A stretch of 48,653 bases of DNA from Verrucomicrobiota bacterium (GCA_003218305.1 QHMY01000040.1:1-48653), one strand, 5' to 3'; positions 11,970 to 17,950 are shown, counted from the stretch's first letter. The notes: a model not told the origin generated them from the sequence alone. Made by a program: numbers and translations.

Positions 11970-12368
11970 TTAGTTGTAGGGCGACCAGAAGGTAGCATCG
12001 ACCACGTCCGAGAGCGCATTCTTCGACGAGGTCGGAACCGACGGAAGGCTGTCCACGGAGACAGCCGTGTAGTCGTTCCCCAGGATGTCTTTGCCGGTCA
12101 CGTAGAGGTTCGTGCCAGCCTTCAGGTACTTAGTCCATTCGGTAAGAGGAACCAGGAAACCCGAGGACTTGTTGTTCTCGATCGCGTATTGGTCGACTGC
12201 AGAGTCGATCAAGCGAAGATCGTTAATGATGCGACTTGCTTGAGAACGCTTACGGGCGCGGAGGAATCCGGGCACCGCGATCGCTGCCAGCAAGGCGATG
12301 ATCGCCACTACGATCATGATTTCCACGAGGGTGAAGCCCCCGCGGCGTTTATTGAGTTTGTTTAACAT
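11970..12368 (-). CDS. type IV pilin / type II pseudopilin (PilA/PulG-like)
   Basis: 132 residues from ATG 12368 (MLNKLNKRRGG...). The leader ends with the prepilin peptidase site RRGG, followed by FTLVEIMIVVAIIALLAAIA with Glu at +5, the canonical class III signal and N-terminal helix. The globular part is short (about 100 residues) and has RIINDLRLIDSAVDQYAIEN, typical of the PulG/GspG-like major pseudopilins. An upstream in-frame ATG at 12419 is rejected because it lies within the leader RNA and gives an overlong leader peptide. A sigma-54 promoter lies about 85 bases upstream. The gene follows the V1-W1-X1 cassette on the same strand but has its own promoter. It is likely the main pilin of the locus. 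Confidence 0.92.
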   Translation of the reverse strand: MLNKLNKRRGGFTLVEIMIVVAIIALLAAIAVPGFLRARKRSQASRIINDLRLIDSAVDQYAIENNKSSGFLVPLTEWTKYLKAGTNLYVTGKDILGNDYTAVSVDSLPSVPTSSKNALSDVVDATFWSPYN

Positions 12369-12452
12369 TGTTTGCTTTCTTTCTTGTCTTGTTTGTTTGA
12401 CTGGCATCCGCGATATCAACCGCGGGAAAAGGGCGGGAATAGGGCCTGTTGA

Positions 12453-12469
12453 AAGCAGTATATGTGCCG
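12453..12469 (-). promoter_or_regulatory. sigma-54 (-24/-12) promoter of the pilin gene
   Basis: Read on the minus strand the site is CGGCACATATACTGCTT. GG at -24 (12468-12467) and GC at -12 (12456-12455) are separated by exactly 10 bases, as in the RpoN consensus TGGCAC-N5-TTGC. Deviations are C for T at the first position and C for T before TGC. Transcription would begin near 12443, leaving a leader of about 75 nt before the ATG at 12368. Pilin genes are classical RpoN/PilR targets. Confidence 0.72.
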
Positions 12470-12730
12470 TCCATAGAGCGTTTTACACAACTCGCGCACT
12501 AGGAGAAATTCCCTTTCTTCTGGAAGAAGGTGGGGGATTCGACATCCGAAAACGCAGCGAAGAACGCCGCGCCGGTTAGCCAGGAAATCCAGTCTGAGAA
12601 ACGAACGAAGGCCGAACAATCCCGACGCCTTACCAGCGATGCTCAGTCCGCTCTGCGAGCTTACGCGCTTCGGTCTGGCCAGGCGTCAGGTCGCTGAACC
12701 TTGGGGACGACGTAAGACACCTGACGAAGT

Positions 12731-14245
12731 TCAGTAGGTAATGCCGCGGACAGGAAGTGAGTTGTCTTCGAACCAACTGGCGTAGGAGTAATTCCCTAAA
12801 ATATTGCTATTGCCGTTGATATTGAGCGCTTCGTCGTAATGAAGGCCGGCACCGCCGCTGATCGTAAGCGTATCTCCGATGAGGGCGCCGCTAATACCGC
12901 CGCTCCCCGAAACTGTTACTCTGTAAGCAGGCGCATTGATCGTCCCGACAAAGGTGGCCGAGCCTGAGACGGTGAGCGTATTATTCGTCCCGTAACCCAC
13001 GAAATTAACGTTCGAAGCGATCCCGCTGCGATTGTTATAGGAATCGCCGCTGGTGGTGATGTTGCTGCCCACATACCAATCGGAATGGACCAGCGTATTT
13101 TGGTCGACGTAACCACTGCCCGAGATGGTGTACTTTCCGGTCACCCAAATCTCAATGTAGTTATCGCCGCTTGTGCCATTGAGGTTATTGATTGTAAGCA
13201 CGTTTCCACCGCTCACCGTCATGTCGCCATTAATCTTATAACGAGCCGGGTTAGTCTTTGTGCCGGATGTTAAAATCACCGGATTACCAGAACCCAGAGA
13301 AGTGTAGGTGCCGGAGGCCCAGTTTGGCGCCGAAACGGTGGGTATGGTTGGATTGAACGGGGTAGAGATGGTACCCTGCACGTTTAACGTGTTTTTCACG
13401 GCGGGCCCGCTGTATTGAAGATCTCCATAGACGTAGGTGCTCCGCAGATCGGAGTTGAGGCTGTTTGCCGTCCCGACGTCACCGTTGCTTTGGCGCTTAA
13501 GGATATCGTACTGTCCCGCGACTCCATTTATCGTAGACGACTTAAATGGATTACTTGAATCAAAGCTATCGATCACACCGCCACCGCTCATATTGATCCA
13601 ATCCCTTAGTGTGATCCCGCGCACCCAAATGCTCTTCGCCACCGCGGATGCGATGACTTCAATCGTACGCGTAGCTCGCGGGGTTACTGACGTGCCGGGT
13701 GCGTTCCGGTCGGCGAAAAGACTGAGCTTCCTCAGATCATTATCGAGTTTCTGATTCGAAACTCGTCTCGGGCCGGCGGCGGCGGCAATTCCGGTGGCAC
13801 GAATTCTATACCATTGATTGCCATTCTTATCCTTGGGCAGATTTGCCGTGTCGACCGTTACCCAACTGCTTACCGTGCTGGCACCCTCGCCTTGCAACGA
13901 CAGGGCCGGCGGTAAATAGTAATTGTATTCAAAATTAGGAGCGGGTGAGGGCACGGAGGTTGCCGTCGAGCCAGCGGTGGGCTCCGCGGTTGGCAGAGAG
14001 GTAATTCCGCTCACCTTTTGCCAACCCGTCCACTGATTGGTGTTCAGCGCGTTGTAGGCTGAATCGACCGCGCTTTCGGCTCCTGCGAGGGCAAGCTGCC
14101 AGCTGGCGGTTTGCATGCCGGAATTAGCATTTTGCGACGTGATGTACAAACTGGTGGCGCAAATCATCGTGAGGATCGTGATCGTGACAATACAGGTGAT
14201 CAGGACGCTCCCTTTTTCGGACTGTGCGGTAGGATCGATTTTCAT
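12731..14245 (-). CDS. PilX-like minor pseudopilin with large C-terminal domain (X1)
   Basis: 504 residues. The N-terminus has a class III prepilin-like signal, KGSVLITCIVTITILTMIC, with a small residue in place of Glu+5 as in PilX/GspK-type proteins. A helical stalk follows (ALAGAESAVDSAYNAL). The remainder is rich in Gly, Ser, Thr and Asn. Its C-terminal third has a beta-repeat look (TISGSGYVDQNTLVHSDWYV, TVSGSATFVGTINAPAYRVT, SGALIGDTLTISGGAG) ending in LHYDEALN, reminiscent of a surface beta-helix domain seen in PilX-like proteins. It is the third gene of the cassette, 5 bases after W1. Just past the stop, an inverted pair CGTCAGGT/ACCTGACG (12684-12691 and 12719-12726) may form a hairpin, without a T-run. 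The likely role is a pilus tip or adhesive component (inference). Confidence 0.75.
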   Translation of the reverse strand: MKIDPTAQSEKGSVLITCIVTITILTMICATSLYITSQNANSGMQTASWQLALAGAESAVDSAYNALNTNQWTGWQKVSGITSLPTAEPTAGSTATSVPSPAPNFEYNYYLPPALSLQGEGASTVSSWVTVDTANLPKDKNGNQWYRIRATGIAAAAGPRRVSNQKLDNDLRKLSLFADRNAPGTSVTPRATRTIEVIASAVAKSIWVRGITLRDWINMSGGGVIDSFDSSNPFKSSTINGVAGQYDILKRQSNGDVGTANSLNSDLRSTYVYGDLQYSGPAVKNTLNVQGTISTPFNPTIPTVSAPNWASGTYTSLGSGNPVILTSGTKTNPARYKINGDMTVSGGNVLTINNLNGTSGDNYIEIWVTGKYTISGSGYVDQNTLVHSDWYVGSNITTSGDSYNNRSGIASNVNFVGYGTNNTLTVSGSATFVGTINAPAYRVTVSGSGGISGALIGDTLTISGGAGLHYDEALNINGNSNILGNYSYASWFEDNSLPVRGITY

Positions 14246-14250
14246 GTTTA

Positions 14251-14817
14251 TTATTGGCGCGCCGCGGCGTTGCGGAGAAAGGTGCTGGAATAGACCGTTG
14301 TGCCTGCGATAGGACCCGGGCCTGGCAAATTCGTAAAGCGGGGTGCGAACGTGATGCTGCAGTTGAGGCTCGAGGTAACATCCTGCGGAGTGACGGTAAA
14401 CGACGAAACATTCGTCGCGATCGGGCGCTCAACGCCATTGACCTGGCGCATGAAATTGCTGCCGCTTTGGTAATACGAGATTGCGACCGTCCCGACTCCG
14501 TACTGAAGCGCACCAGTGGCATTGAACGAAGGATCTTTCGGGCTTCCGTCCACGTTGTAATAGGAGGGTACGGTCACCGTCAAAACGTTGTTTACCACAG
14601 TGGCGCTCACGGCGCGGCGGCAGTCCATGGCGATGTAATCCAAGACGCGCAACTGGTCGCCTTGTGAGATGGAATAGCCTTCCACTGCCATAAAGCTCCG
14701 TTGCAGCGCCACACCTGCAGTGATCACGGCCGCCAGAACCAGCGAGCCGCAAGCGACCGACATCATCATCTCGACCAGCGACATGCCGGACTGAGACATC
14801 TTGTCCAGGCGTTTCAT
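14251..14817 (-). CDS. PilW-like minor pseudopilin (W1)
   Basis: 188 residues. The prepilin signal is QSG followed by MSLVEMMMSVACGSLVLAAV, with Glu at +5. The helix continues into LQRSFMAVEGYSISQGDQLR and VLDYIAMDCRRAVSA, a PilW/PulJ-like arrangement. The C-terminal end ITFAPRF...GTTVYSSTFLRN is shared with the second-cassette paralogue at 18442-19068. Its ATG overlaps the stop of V1 by four bases (ATGA), so translation is probably coupled. The expected role is as a minor pilin that primes pilus or pseudopilus assembly in the inner membrane. Confidence 0.85.
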   Translation of the reverse strand: MKRLDKMSQSGMSLVEMMMSVACGSLVLAAVITAGVALQRSFMAVEGYSISQGDQLRVLDYIAMDCRRAVSATVVNNVLTVTVPSYYNVDGSPKDPSFNATGALQYGVGTVAISYYQSGSNFMRQVNGVERPIATNVSSFTVTPQDVTSSLNCSITFAPRFTNLPGPGPIAGTTVYSSTFLRNAAARQ

Positions 14818-15383
14818 TGCCCGATATTTCCTTTCCCGAAAATCTGCGCTAGCTCGCGGGTGCGGGTGCGTCCGTTTGGTCCGTTCCAGGTGAGCAGGAT
14901 GTCGACTTTGAGAAGGTTATAATTCGTCGCCAGGTTATCGTTGTGATCCGTGGTATGGCCAGTGGGATGCCCGTCATCACGCACCCATTGGTTCACGTTG
15001 GAGCCGTCCGTAGGATACCCCGCTGCTCCTGCAGTCGTAACATACCCGCTGACCGTAATCGTTTCAGTTAACGAACCCAACGTTGCCTCCGAGGTCGTGG
15101 AGTTTCTGACGATATTGTTCTTTACGTAATCCTTGTCTGCGATATTGGACCAGGCCGTGGCCCGGAAGCTTTCTATCCGTTCCTGCAACATCATGGTGGC
15201 CGCCGTGGTCTCTTTTTGGGCCCTCAGCGTTGTAAGCAGTTGCTGGTTCGTCGCAAAGGCAGCCGCTCCAAACATAACGGAGACGACAATCGCGACACAC
15301 ACCTCTACGAAGCTGAACCCGCCTTCGGCCGGGGCTTGGACGACCCCGGAGTTAGCTCGAGTAAAGATGCGCTTCAGATTCAT
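14814..15383 (-). CDS. PilV-like minor pseudopilin (V1)
   Basis: 189 residues, first gene of the minus-strand cassette. The leader is unusually long (about 22 residues) and ends EGG, followed by FSFVEVCVAIVVSVMFGAAA with Glu at +5. The motif KETTAATMMLQERIESFRATAW after the helix matches PilV/PulI-type proteins and the paralogue V2 (KESVAALQSVQDRSESLRNLAF). The C-terminal beta region holds KVDILLTWNGPNGRTRTREL, comparable to V2's MDVRVTWTMTLGGRARTEQT. The ATG at 15383 lies about 28 bases behind the start predicted from a sigma-54 promoter. Confidence 0.85.
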   Translation of the reverse strand: MNLKRIFTRANSGVVQAPAEGGFSFVEVCVAIVVSVMFGAAAFATNQQLLTTLRAQKETTAATMMLQERIESFRATAWSNIADKDYVKNNIVRNSTTSEATLGSLTETITVSGYVTTAGAAGYPTDGSNVNQWVRDDGHPTGHTTDHNDNLATNYNLLKVDILLTWNGPNGRTRTRELAQIFGKGNIGQ

Positions 15384-15421
15384 AGATGCGCTTCGGATTG
15401 AGATGCATTATGGGAATTATG

Positions 15422-15437
15422 AGCAGCTTGGATGCCA
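15422..15437 (-). promoter_or_regulatory. sigma-54 (-24/-12) promoter of the V1-W1-X1 operon
   Basis: The minus strand reads TGGCATCCAAGCTGCT, with GG (15436-15435) and GC (15424-15423) separated by exactly 10 bases. It matches TGGCAC-N5-TTGCT except T for C at the sixth position and C for T before TGC. The predicted start site is near 15411, giving a short leader before V1. Confidence 0.72.
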
Positions 15438-15568
15438 GTCTCGCCGAAACGGACAGGCGCAGGCGCCGAACGATCTCGTCCGTCTCGTGAGATCAGAAGA
15501 GGGTCTCACCAGCGGCAATCGGCCGAATGGTCGAGCTTATGGTTGGCTCGGAATAGCCCCAAAAGGAA

Positions 15569-15601
15569 AGACGGGCAGGCTCTTTTCGAGCCTGCCCGTC
15601 T
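15569..15601 (-). terminator. rho-independent terminator of the small membrane protein gene
   Basis: A perfect 14-bp inverted repeat, arms AGACGGGCAGGCTC (15569-15582) and GAGCCTGCCCGTCT (15588-15601), with a 5-base loop. On the minus strand it is followed by TTTCCTTTT. It lies about 35 bases after the stop of the 83-residue gene, insulating it from the V1 operon that starts just beyond. Confidence 0.85.
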
Positions 15602-15635
15602 CAACAAACACAACAAACAAACAAACCAACAACTG

Positions 15636-15887
15636 CTAAATTCGCGGGACCGACTCTGGCTCGGCACTTCTGCGCCTAAGCAGGCGGCGCGACGAGATCA
15701 GGACCAAAACTCCAACGAGACCAGGGACCAGAAGTCCCGCATTCGACAAGAAAGTAGAATTCCTGGCGCTAGCGAGGTAATCCAAGAAAGCGGCTTGGGC
15801 GGAGGCGGCGCTACCGAGAAAGAACAACACGCCTGCGGCGATGGCGCAACAGAGCGCTCGGACGTGCCTGGTGGATTTAGTTCTCAT
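15636..15887 (-). CDS. small exported membrane protein, unknown
   Basis: 83 residues, not recognised. Residues 1-33 look like a signal peptide (basic start, then ALCCAIAAGVLFFLGSAASA and QAA). A short mature stretch (FLDYLASARNSTFLSN) follows. Residues about 50-66 form a second hydrophobic helix (AGLLVPGLVGVLVLIS), then an Arg-rich tail (SRRLLRRR). Hydrophobic helix plus Arg cluster at the C-terminus resembles PEP-CTERM-like sorting tails, but the Pro-Glu-Pro motif is absent. It has its own sigma-70-like promoter and a strong terminator, and lies next to the pilin operon. A pilus-related accessory role is possible but only by position. Confidence 0.65.
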   Translation of the reverse strand: MRTKSTRHVRALCCAIAAGVLFFLGSAASAQAAFLDYLASARNSTFLSNAGLLVPGLVGVLVLISSRRLLRRRSAEPESVPRI

Positions 15888-15917
15888 ATATGATCGGTGT
15901 GGGATTGGGGGTTTTGA

Positions 15918-15946
15918 TTTTTATCGGCTTATTAATTTGCTGTCGA
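15918..15946 (-). promoter_or_regulatory. sigma-70-type promoter for the 83-residue gene
   Basis: On the minus strand TCGACA (-35, 15946-15941) is followed after 17 bases by TAAAAA (-10, 15923-15918), in an AT-rich stretch about 30 bases upstream of ATG 15887. The -35 matches 5/6 and the -10 only 4/6 of the consensus, so this is moderate evidence. Confidence 0.45.
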
Positions 15947-16384
15947 TACCTATCCGAAAGCATTGGAAAATATATATTATAAAATTCATAACATTGTCCA
16001 GCATTATTTCTGCTTTATAATTATGAGACTCAGAACTGCGACTTCCGCTGCCGCACGAAATTGCACTGGGCGATCCCTTCCCGCCACCGTTTACCCGCCT
16101 CACGAAGCGGCGTTATTCCTCCGGCAAGAGCCACCAAGTCCACAACCGCGCGCCCCTGATGGCCCGTATTCCGCGAGCGGAGGCGAATTTCTTCGGCGTA
16201 ACTGAGCATCCGCGTCCTCTGGCTTGTTATTCGCCTGCCGCCAATTCGGCCCATACCGCGCGATAGTCGGCAGACCGCGTTCCTGCTCTGAAACGTTCGC
16301 GAGCACGTCGCAAGCGATTGCCGGCAATCGAGGCGTAATGGCGTCCGTTGCTCGCACATATTGTCCGCAGCCTAATCGGTGCGC
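15947..16384. other. intergenic: AT-rich stretch then GC-rich non-coding sequence
   Basis: About 440 bases. The first 80 are strongly AT-rich (around 15960-16025). The rest is GC-rich with overlapping minus-strand frames (16030-16359 and 16100-16357). Neither frame resembles a family I recognise. It may be a decayed gene, since plausible protein-like stretches switch between two frames, but this could not be shown. Confidence 0.4.
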
Positions 16385-16610
16385 GTCGTCTTTGCCTCTC
16401 GCCCTAACAAATTCGGTTGACAGCGACTTTGGCCAATCGCAAAGTCACAATTCTCTTTTTTCCCGCCGAATGCTCGCTTCAAACATCATTCCAACAGCCG
16501 TTTCAGGCAGCACACCGTCCATTCTTCAGTTTCCGACGGATGCCACCCGCGCCGTCCGTTCATTGCGAAATATGACCACTCAACTCCTGCAGGAAGCAGC
16601 TCTTGTGATC
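16385..16610 (+). repeat. rpoZ 5' region, copy 1 of an imperfect direct repeat
   Basis: This segment (the upstream region plus the first codons of rpoZ) is similar to 20609-20795. Shared landmarks in the same order are GGTGCGCGTCG, a CTCTCGC...ACAAA...CGGTTG cluster, TCAGTTTCCGA, then TTGCGAAATA just before the rpoZ ATG, and CCTGCA in the first codons. In the final 35 aligned bases about 28 are identical. It is probably the promoter/leader of rpoZ. Confidence 0.65.
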
Positions 16611-16796
16611 CCGAATCAGCAACTCCTGATCAACGTCGTCTCCCGGCGCGTGCGCCAACTGGGGTTGGGTCATCGCCCGCTCGTTGAAGCCACCCCGCGG
16701 TCCTCGCTCACCGACATCGCCCTCCGGGAAATCATCGCGGGCAAGCTCACCTTCGAGCTGGCCCCCGAGAAACCTGCCGCCGAAGACGCCGCTTAA
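16572..16796 (+). CDS. rpoZ: RNA polymerase omega subunit
   Basis: 74 residues from ATG 16572. The core INVVSRRVRQLGLGHRPLVE followed by LTDIALREIIAGKLTFEL is the omega-subunit pattern of Verrucomicrobia and relatives, after an N-terminal helix QLLQEAALVIPNQQLL. The frame is open back to 16224, but the extension lacks any conserved sequence and overlaps the duplicated leader, so the short start is preferred. Omega binds the beta-prime subunit and assists RNA polymerase assembly. smpB follows after 27 bases on the same strand, so the two are probably co-transcribed. The N-terminus is unusual in reading ALVIPNQQ where a remnant copy at 20.77 kb reads AARK. Confidence 0.88.
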   Translation: MTTQLLQEAALVIPNQQLLINVVSRRVRQLGLGHRPLVEATPRSSLTDIALREIIAGKLTFELAPEKPAAEDAA

Positions 16797-16823
16797 TCTC
16801 GCGCTGCGTCCGGAAGCGCGATC

Positions 16824-17285
16824 ATGGCGACCGAGACGATCCTCAATCGCAAGGCTCTTCGCGACTTTCACATTCTCGAACGCTACGAGGCCGGCATCGA
16901 GCTGAAAGGCAGCGAGGTCAAATCGATCCGCGCCGGCAAAGCGAATATCAGCGACGCGTTTGTCCGTATCGAGAAGGGCCAGGCCTTCCTTCATAACGCC
17001 GACATCCAACCCTACGCCCAGGCAAGCCACGAAATCCCCGCTCCGAAGCGTGTCCGGCGGCTGCTTCTGCACAAACAGGAAATCGACAAGCTGTACGGGT
17101 TGACGGCCATCGCGGGCCGGGCGCTGGTGGTGTTGAGCCTGTATTGGAAAAACGGCCGGCTGAAATCTGAGATCGGGGTGGCCCAGGGCAAAGTTGCTCA
17201 TGACAAACGCGCGGATCTCAAAAAGCGGGCGACCGATCGTGAAACCGAACGCGAAGTTGCGCGATTCAATCGCAAGCACGGGTGA
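16824..17285 (+). CDS. smpB: SsrA-binding protein SmpB
   Basis: 153 residues, normal length. The hallmarks are ILNRKALRDFHILERYEAGI, ELKGSEVKSIRAGKANISDA, FVRIEKGQAFLHNADIQPY and the basic C-terminal tail DKRADLKKRATDRETEREVA. SmpB carries tmRNA to stalled ribosomes during trans-translation. The tmRNA gene itself was not found nearby. It is downstream of rpoZ, and the second pseudopilin cassette starts 665 bases further on the same strand under its own promoter. Confidence 0.96.
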   Translation: MATETILNRKALRDFHILERYEAGIELKGSEVKSIRAGKANISDAFVRIEKGQAFLHNADIQPYAQASHEIPAPKRVRRLLLHKQEIDKLYGLTAIAGRALVVLSLYWKNGRLKSEIGVAQGKVAHDKRADLKKRATDRETEREVARFNRKHG

Positions 17286-17904
17286 GGGATCATGAAAGGC
17301 GGGAATCCTCGTCCCCTTAGCGATTCACCCAGAGATATTCGGTTCGTGCGCGGGTTCGGGGCCAGATCGCTTTTCCGGTGAAGGGCGCGAATATCCCTTC
17401 GTTAGCGGCTGGTCAAGGTCTTCGGCAAAGTAGCCCTGACCCGAGCTGGCGTGCTCCCGCCGCCCGCCTCGCTGAGCTTGCTGGCCAATAGGCGGCATCA
17501 CAGGGACTGCACTTCGCTTCGATGGTGGCCCGCCCGTCAAAACGCGGCGACCGCATGCGCAGCCAAGTTCGCGACCACCGGCTGCTAATTTAGAAGCGAG
17601 GCCTCCCTCAAGTGCCCCTAACCGTTTTTTGGGAATCGCGTATTAACCCTTCTTTTAGCTAACCAAGCACCCATCGGCCTACCCAGCCAAGGAAAATTAT
17701 CGGTCGAACTCTTATCCGCACGGCTAAAAAACCGTGTCCTCTGTATCTCTCATCTTCTGAATGGTTAACAGAGACTTATGATAGATAAGGAAGGGGCCGT
17801 TGCCCGCCAAAATACGCTGGAAGCTAGTCTACATATTCTCAATACTGACAAAACTTTACCAAAATCTCATATTGTAGAAAGGCTCTCGCAATACCGAGAA
17901 AAAA
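17286..17904. other. long intergenic region upstream of the second pilin cassette
   Basis: About 620 bases without a convincing gene. The left half is GC-rich. From about 17590 the sequence becomes markedly AT-rich and ends in the sigma-54 promoter at 17905-17918. A small hairpin CACGG/CCGTG with an A-rich loop lies near 17718-17735. No tmRNA, tRNA or riboswitch fold was recognised. The AT-rich part is where binding sites of a sigma-54 activator would be expected, but no repeat operator was identified. Confidence 0.5.
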
Positions 17905-17919
17905 GGCACGTGAAGTGCT
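17904..17919 (+). promoter_or_regulatory. sigma-54 (-24/-12) promoter of the V2-W2-X2 operon
   Basis: The site reads AGGCACGTGAAGTGCT: GG at 17905-17906 and GC at 17917-17918 with exactly 10 bases between, GGCAC intact. Deviations are A for T at the first position and G for T before TGC. The start site is expected near 17930, about 20 bases before the V2 ATG at 17951. Confidence 0.75.
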
Positions 17920-17950
17920 TTAAATTATAATTACCATAACGACCAAAGCG

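Follow-up and report, generated by a model that had tools for sequence, protein, structure and literature searches.

In Proteobacteria, pili are known to be under sigma-54 control, and no study of a sigma-54 regulon in Verrucomicrobia was found in the open-licence literature. To our knowledge, few cases are known in which a second regulator has its site within or against the polymerase footprint at a sigma-54 promoter, BosR being one. The pepA promoter of Aquincola carries TGGCAC and CTGCTT (PMC9850573), and BldC protomers are arranged head-to-tail on 9-bp direct repeats of the form AATTXXXX(C) (PMC5859096). The locus described here is an island of type IV pilin genes on contig C142 (QHMY01000040.1) of a metagenome-assembled genome (MAG) of an uncultured soil Verrucomicrobium (3.60 Mb in 285 contigs); "the window" denotes the whole analysed stretch of 48,653 nucleotides. 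The island consists of one major-pilin-like gene on the minus strand and two minor-pilin operons, V1-W1-X1 (minus) and V2-W2-X2 (plus). All three transcription units are preceded by predicted sigma-54 promoters, and the two V promoters carry in addition a flanking AT-rich element that is apparently hitherto undescribed. With about even confidence, these promoters are taken to represent a distinct sigma-54 promoter class of Chthoniobacterales, in which an operator of 9-bp direct repeats is built in at fixed points to either side of the -24/-12 core. Its putative reader, a protein other than an enhancer-binding protein (EBP), would coordinate PilC and secreted proteins with type IV pili. Sigma-54 control of pilins would in itself be of a known kind; the flanking element would be the new part.

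Probable sigma-54 promoters of the pilin genes

Each of the three sites has GG at -24, GC at -12 and a 10-bp gap in a TGGCAC-N5-TTGC-like context (Table 1). Direct reading confirms an earlier note on this DNA, which had listed three GG-N10-GC sites retaining GGCA and TGCT on the right strand upstream of the pilin units; the start codons at 12368, 15383 and 17951 lie 85, 38 and 31 nt from the pilin, V1 and V2 sites, respectively. The pattern GGCA-N7-TGCT occurs exactly three times in the window; each match stands shortly before a transcription unit of pilin genes and has the orientation of that unit. The count by itself is unremarkable, as shuffled windows hold 1.40 matches on average and 16 of 100 hold three or more. 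Genome-wide, 71 matches on both strands (7.2 Mb of strand) correspond to 1e-5 per strand-base, and about 0.003 sites would be expected by chance in three 100-nt upstream stretches; it is therefore the placement, not the count, that is unlikely. Raw genome-wide counts show no enrichment of the right spacing, since N7 (71 matches) is not commoner than a spacer of N8 (108 matches). Relaxing the pattern to TGGCAC-N5-TTGC with 2 mismatches gives no enrichment, as the window has 37 such matches where 47 would be expected. When a matrix was trained without the window sites, these ranked 1st, 2nd and 5th within the window.

The DNA upstream of V-type and pilin homologues was gathered from 83 genomes of the family, and the best site per promoter was scored (threshold at least 18) with the right spacing and with spacers altered by 1-3 bases. 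A single scheme with weights set by hand was applied identically to the controls. Among these related and hence non-independent genomes, a site is present in 25 of 33 V-type minor-pilin promoters (altered spacing 0-3, dinucleotide shuffles 0.55) and in 31 of 32 first-pilin promoters (altered spacing 0-2, dinucleotide shuffles 0.65). The second, downstream pilin gene served as negative control and has a site in 1 of 18 promoters. The pilin site lies 80 to 101 nt before the start codon, with the consensus TGGCATYAACRCTGCTTTA in many relatives, and the V sites lie mostly at -30 to -54. The proposal of sigma-54 promoters is supported by family-wide conservation with exact spacing and by the presence of rpoN and EBPs (see below), and the three sites are very probably genuine and conserved across the family, as far as promoter use can be read from sequence. 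It is highly improbable that the sites are chance matches chosen post hoc and that the operons run from ordinary sigma-70-type promoters: three matches in a window of this size are within chance (16 of 100 shuffles) and the loose consensus is not enriched, but all three sites are correctly placed, the exact spacing is kept in dozens of diverged promoters, and there are almost no sites with altered spacing or at the second pilin gene, all of which strongly contradicts this explanation.

All 71 genomic GGCA-N7-TGCT sites were read individually. Well-placed sites precede a pilin gene on contig C64 that is 94% identical to that of the window and belongs to a pilin pair, a third V-type operon (C257:377), a PilC/T2SSF gene (C4:4507), and genes for a receiver-domain protein (C9:44808), a CAP-domain secreted protein (C9:4399), a small secreted protein (C4:12455) and a CHASE3-PAS protein (C144:43573). 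Many of the remaining sites are intragenic and probably chance matches. The earlier description of the island as one regulon is only partly right. The sigma-54 sites are shared, the regulon reaches PilC, receiver-domain and secreted proteins, and control would differ among the three units, V1 and V2 carrying a second element which the window pilin promoter does not. The three operons would belong to a wider pilus/exoprotein regulon and not to a self-contained island.

The flanking direct-repeat element

After masking of the sigma-54 sites, de novo expectation-maximisation analysis of the V promoters yielded the motif aTTATGGtAATTAT with a score of 142, compared with 37-45 for shuffles. In the window, the V1 and V2 copies are the top two hits, far above all others. 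The V1 copy (ATTATGGGAATTAT) begins directly past the sigma-54 site and covers about -10 to +4 of the predicted start. The motif scan of the window placed no copy at the pilin promoter; several relatives have a related TTCTAGAAATTATAAAA upstream of theirs. The flanks of the element form an AT-rich 9-bp direct repeat (TATGGTAATTATGG repeats) with AATT every 9 bp, and flank identity is 0.52-0.56 at shift 9 versus about 0.25 at most other shifts.

The 12-base core TATRGNAATTAT, scanned alone, has 8 exact matches in the source genome. In eight genomes of the genus it has 57, compared with 6 for the reversed pattern; this element-only scan covers one genus, and some of the copies counted belong to the V promoters from which the core had been obtained. 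For 37 of the 57 copies the distance to a strong sigma-54 site is at most 45 bp, as against 5% of random positions. Counted from the start of the 16-base promoter, these copies fall at -17/-18, at +15 to +17 and at +23 to +25. The sole exception is L254 at -33, and other members of that gene family lack the site. Since the flanking copies span about 11 gene families, the position classes do not stem from one inherited copy. V promoters of other genera show nearly identical position classes, in either orientation. A translational role, suggested by the start-region-like ATGGNAATTATG, was rejected, as 15 of the 37 flanking copies (about 40%) are inverted and some lie upstream of the promoter.

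Some copies stand apart from sigma-54 sites. An exact copy precedes the gene of a CI/Xre-like DNA-binding protein (G000:C44:5866, L207), which is a possible candidate for the regulator of the element. In most genomes of the genus, the element also overlaps the start-codon region (GTGGATATGGAAATTATGAGAAC) of a conserved secreted-protein gene; loci with such a start-codon copy are L212, L231, L254, L256, L264 and L265.

RpoN and candidate activators

The gene rpoN is located on contig C96 (TIGR02395, 427.9 bits; cut-off 277.35). It was detected in 71 of the 83 family genomes and in 29 of the 30 good ones. A second, truncated rpoN match at a contig end (G000:C72:5234-5560) may reflect strain variation, contamination or a paralogue. 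Four NtrC-type EBPs are encoded in the genome (contigs C96, C222, C140 and C115, two of them cut by contig ends) and none in the window, as had been expected from the earlier note, which placed the activator ATPase outside the window and proposed a search for rpoN and EBPs.

The C96 EBP has the domain order REC-AAA-HTH, is NtrC-like and is encoded upstream of rpoN. In a genome-wide comparison its type was present in 5 of 5 pilin-positive and 0 of 5 pilin-negative genomes, the latter all of genus g14, whereas C115-, C140- and C222-type EBPs occur in both groups alike. The C140-type EBP was rejected as a pilin-specific activator for its conservation in pilin-negative genomes. A survey of rpoN flanks found the C96-type EBP at every informative locus of g1, g4, g5, g6, g7 and g13 and at none of g14 or g12, and flanks and genome comparisons together place it (84-98% identity) next to rpoN in all informative genomes of the former six genera and of g10 and g11. 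The C96-type EBP is probably the best candidate for the activator of the three operons. No PilS-type kinase was recognised among the open reading frames around it. Of the NtrC-like NCBIfam models listed by name, it reaches the cut-off of none, PrsR included; against TIGR02915 (PrsR, cut-off 502.6 bits) the three longer EBPs reach 384.7 (C96 candidate), 381.5 and 289.3 bits, the last being cut by a contig end.

Two candidates for an upstream activator site were discarded. The strongest upstream motif of the V promoters is the end of a neighbouring tRNA gene, and a pattern check did not recover the 22-bp motif reported upstream of the pilin set. The tRNA-like end (AAGCTGAGCCACAGCCCG) lies 200-300 nt upstream of V2-type promoters of several relatives (L107, L111, L117, L119, L123-L125), which suggests an insertion hot spot.

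Interpretation of the element

The chances are about equal for and against the element being bound by a second regulator that is not an EBP. This putative protein is tentatively regarded as a repressor, because two of the position classes (+15 to +17, +23 to +25) overlap with the stretch that melts and with the start. An unlikely but not negligible alternative is that the element is the site of a non-EBP co-activator required along with the EBP, in the manner of BosR. The copies flank the -24/-12 core in three fixed position classes near the same helical face, and BosR acts positively from AT-rich direct repeats juxtaposed to -24/-12 (PMC3037356). However, a protein bound to the many copies that span about -10 to +4 should obstruct polymerase, and several conserved sigma-54 pilin promoters, that of the window included, lack the element.

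Slightly less likely still, the EBP itself would bind the element as its promoter-proximal enhancer and would have no site farther upstream. Such an arrangement has a precedent in FleQ leaders; the motif search gave no other conserved upstream element, and the element tracks sigma-54 sites. Against this, pilin promoters with perfect sigma-54 sites lack it, it is also found without a sigma-54 site, and it consists of 9-bp head-to-tail repeats, unlike the inverted repeats that Fis-type domains usually bind. It is improbable that the element is simply an AT-rich melting or start region which eases opening and is not a protein site: most copies do lie in the part of the promoter that open complexes melt, at about -10 to +2, but a specific 12-bp sequence in both orientations with 9-bp periodicity, copies as far upstream as -43 to -32 and pilin sigma-54 promoters devoid of the element do not fit.

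Several observations weigh against the proposed promoter class with its operator and activator. The source is an uncultured MAG that is 88.7% complete. No strong sigma-54 site lies near 20 of the 57 element copies. The closest V1 homologue, in genome G081, has only a weak nearest site (CGGTATGTTTATTGCT), and rpoN was not found in this genome, whose completeness is only 68%. In genus g12 the pilins have sigma-54 sites and no C96-type EBP stands beside rpoN, the rpoN flank being the only region checked; as the pilins are present, its activator would be elsewhere or different. The pilin-negative EBP controls are from the single genus g14, and the contrast may reflect few evolutionary events. No conserved upstream EBP enhancer was found by a motif search that could miss a diverged or lineage-specific site.

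On the proposed class, the following sequence of events would apply. RpoN-RNA polymerase would bind the GG and GC elements of the three promoters as a closed complex, which an NtrC-family ATPase encoded in trans, likely the REC-AAA-HTH protein of C96, would open; transcription is predicted to start about 12 nt downstream of GC. A second protein would read the AT-rich direct repeat of 9 bp at the promoters of V1, V2, PilC, the receiver-domain and secreted proteins and the third V operon. From these sites, which lie at fixed spacings to either side of the core, it would probably gate the access of polymerase, most likely as a repressor. The data define a testable regulon for abundant uncultured soil bacteria and name a candidate activator, and the fixed positions of the element suggest that sigma-54 promoters can host the site of a second regulator within or against the polymerase footprint.

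Features of the locus

The prepilin signature is present in W1, W2 and the pilin, and DUF7305 in X1 and X2 (Table 1). Relatives of V2 in ten named records are all from Verrucomicrobia MAGs, among them Spartobacteria, Candidatus Udaeobacter and a Chthoniobacterales bin.

Table 1. Coordinates of genes, promoters and other elements of the pilin island in the window
Feature	Position	Strand	Remarks
Type IV major-pilin-like gene, 132 aa	11970..12368	-	N_methyl domain, PF07963
7-bp hairpin CCGCGGT-TGAT-ATCGCGG, predicted pilin mRNA 5' leader	12408..12425	-	conserved, covarying
Predicted sigma-54 (-24/-12) promoter of pilin gene, CGGCACATATACTGCT	12454..12469	-	pattern match, conservation
X1, PilX-like with DUF7305, 504 aa	12731..14245	-	PF23981
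W1, prepilin-like, 188 aa	14251..14817	-	PF07963
V1, PilV-like minor pilin, 189 aa	14814..15383	-	homologues found; no Pfam match
Flanking element ATTATGGGAATTAT (sense strand ATAATTCCCATAAT)	15407..15420	+	second-best window hit
Predicted sigma-54 promoter of V1-W1-X1, TGGCATCCAAGCTGCT	15422..15437	-	top matrix score in window
Predicted sigma-54 promoter of V2-W2-X2, AGGCACGTGAAGTGCT	17904..17919	+	conserved before V2 orthologues
Flanking element GTTATGGTAATTAT	17927..17940	-	best window hit; overlaps predicted V2-W2-X2 start
V2, PilV-like minor pilin, 164 aa	17951..18445	+	homologues at 42-78% identity
W2, prepilin-like, 208 aa	18442..19068	+	PF07963
X2, PilX-like with DUF7305, 499 aa	19095..20594	+	PF23981

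The leader hairpin of the pilin gene is situated just downstream of the predicted transcription start. Each pair of its stem is kept in 25-32 of 32 related leaders, with two-sided changes (C-G to A-T; T-A to C-G), and in these leaders it is followed by a CAAACAAACAA stretch. Because the hairpin is conserved by changes on both sides, it fits a transcript that starts upstream of it. No match to the hairpin was found in Rfam. Promoter and leader also match those of the chromosomal paralogue G000:C64:10901-11296, of which the window pilin (11973-12368, 94% identical) is probably a recent duplicate. Between the first and the second pilin gene of many relatives (L138, L137 and L061 among them) stands another conserved inverted repeat (ATTCATTC...GGGAATGAGTTGT), longer than the hairpin, which may serve in mRNA processing or attenuation; no such partner lies near the window pilin.

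A small secreted protein is encoded at 15636-15887 on the minus strand of the window. Its C-terminal helix and arginine cluster resemble a PEP-CTERM tail, but the motif is absent. It has no NCBIfam match and no Pfam match above cut-off, and no upstream sigma-54 site was seen by eye.

Comparison with known systems

The locus resembles the RpoN/PilR-dependent pilin promoters of Proteobacteria in having a TGGCAC-N5-TTGC-type site 30-100 nt before pilin genes, an NtrC-family response regulator as candidate activator and PilC under the same promoter type. It differs from them in that neither a PilS kinase beside the candidate EBP nor an upstream PilR site was recognised, and in the extra direct-repeat element at many promoters. 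Sigma-54 promoters before secreted-protein genes are shared with the PEP-CTERM regulon of PrsK-PrsR and RpoN (Haft 2006, PMC1569441). In that regulon the second motif averages 63 nt upstream, whereas here the element touches the core promoter on either side; the candidate EBP also stays below the PrsR cut-off (384.7 versus 502.6 bits), and Verrucomicrobium spinosum is listed without PrsK and PrsR. BldC operators resemble the element in the recurrence of AATT every 9 bp, a comparison made by repeat pattern; the C of the BldC consensus sits elsewhere in the element. BosR at the RpoN-dependent rpoS promoter of Borrelia is similar in that a non-EBP protein occupies AT-rich direct repeats beside -24/-12 (PMC3037356). 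The BosR repeats are, however, pentamers (TAAATTAAAT) at the rpoS promoter, whereas the units described here are 9 bp long and occur at many sigma-54 promoters.

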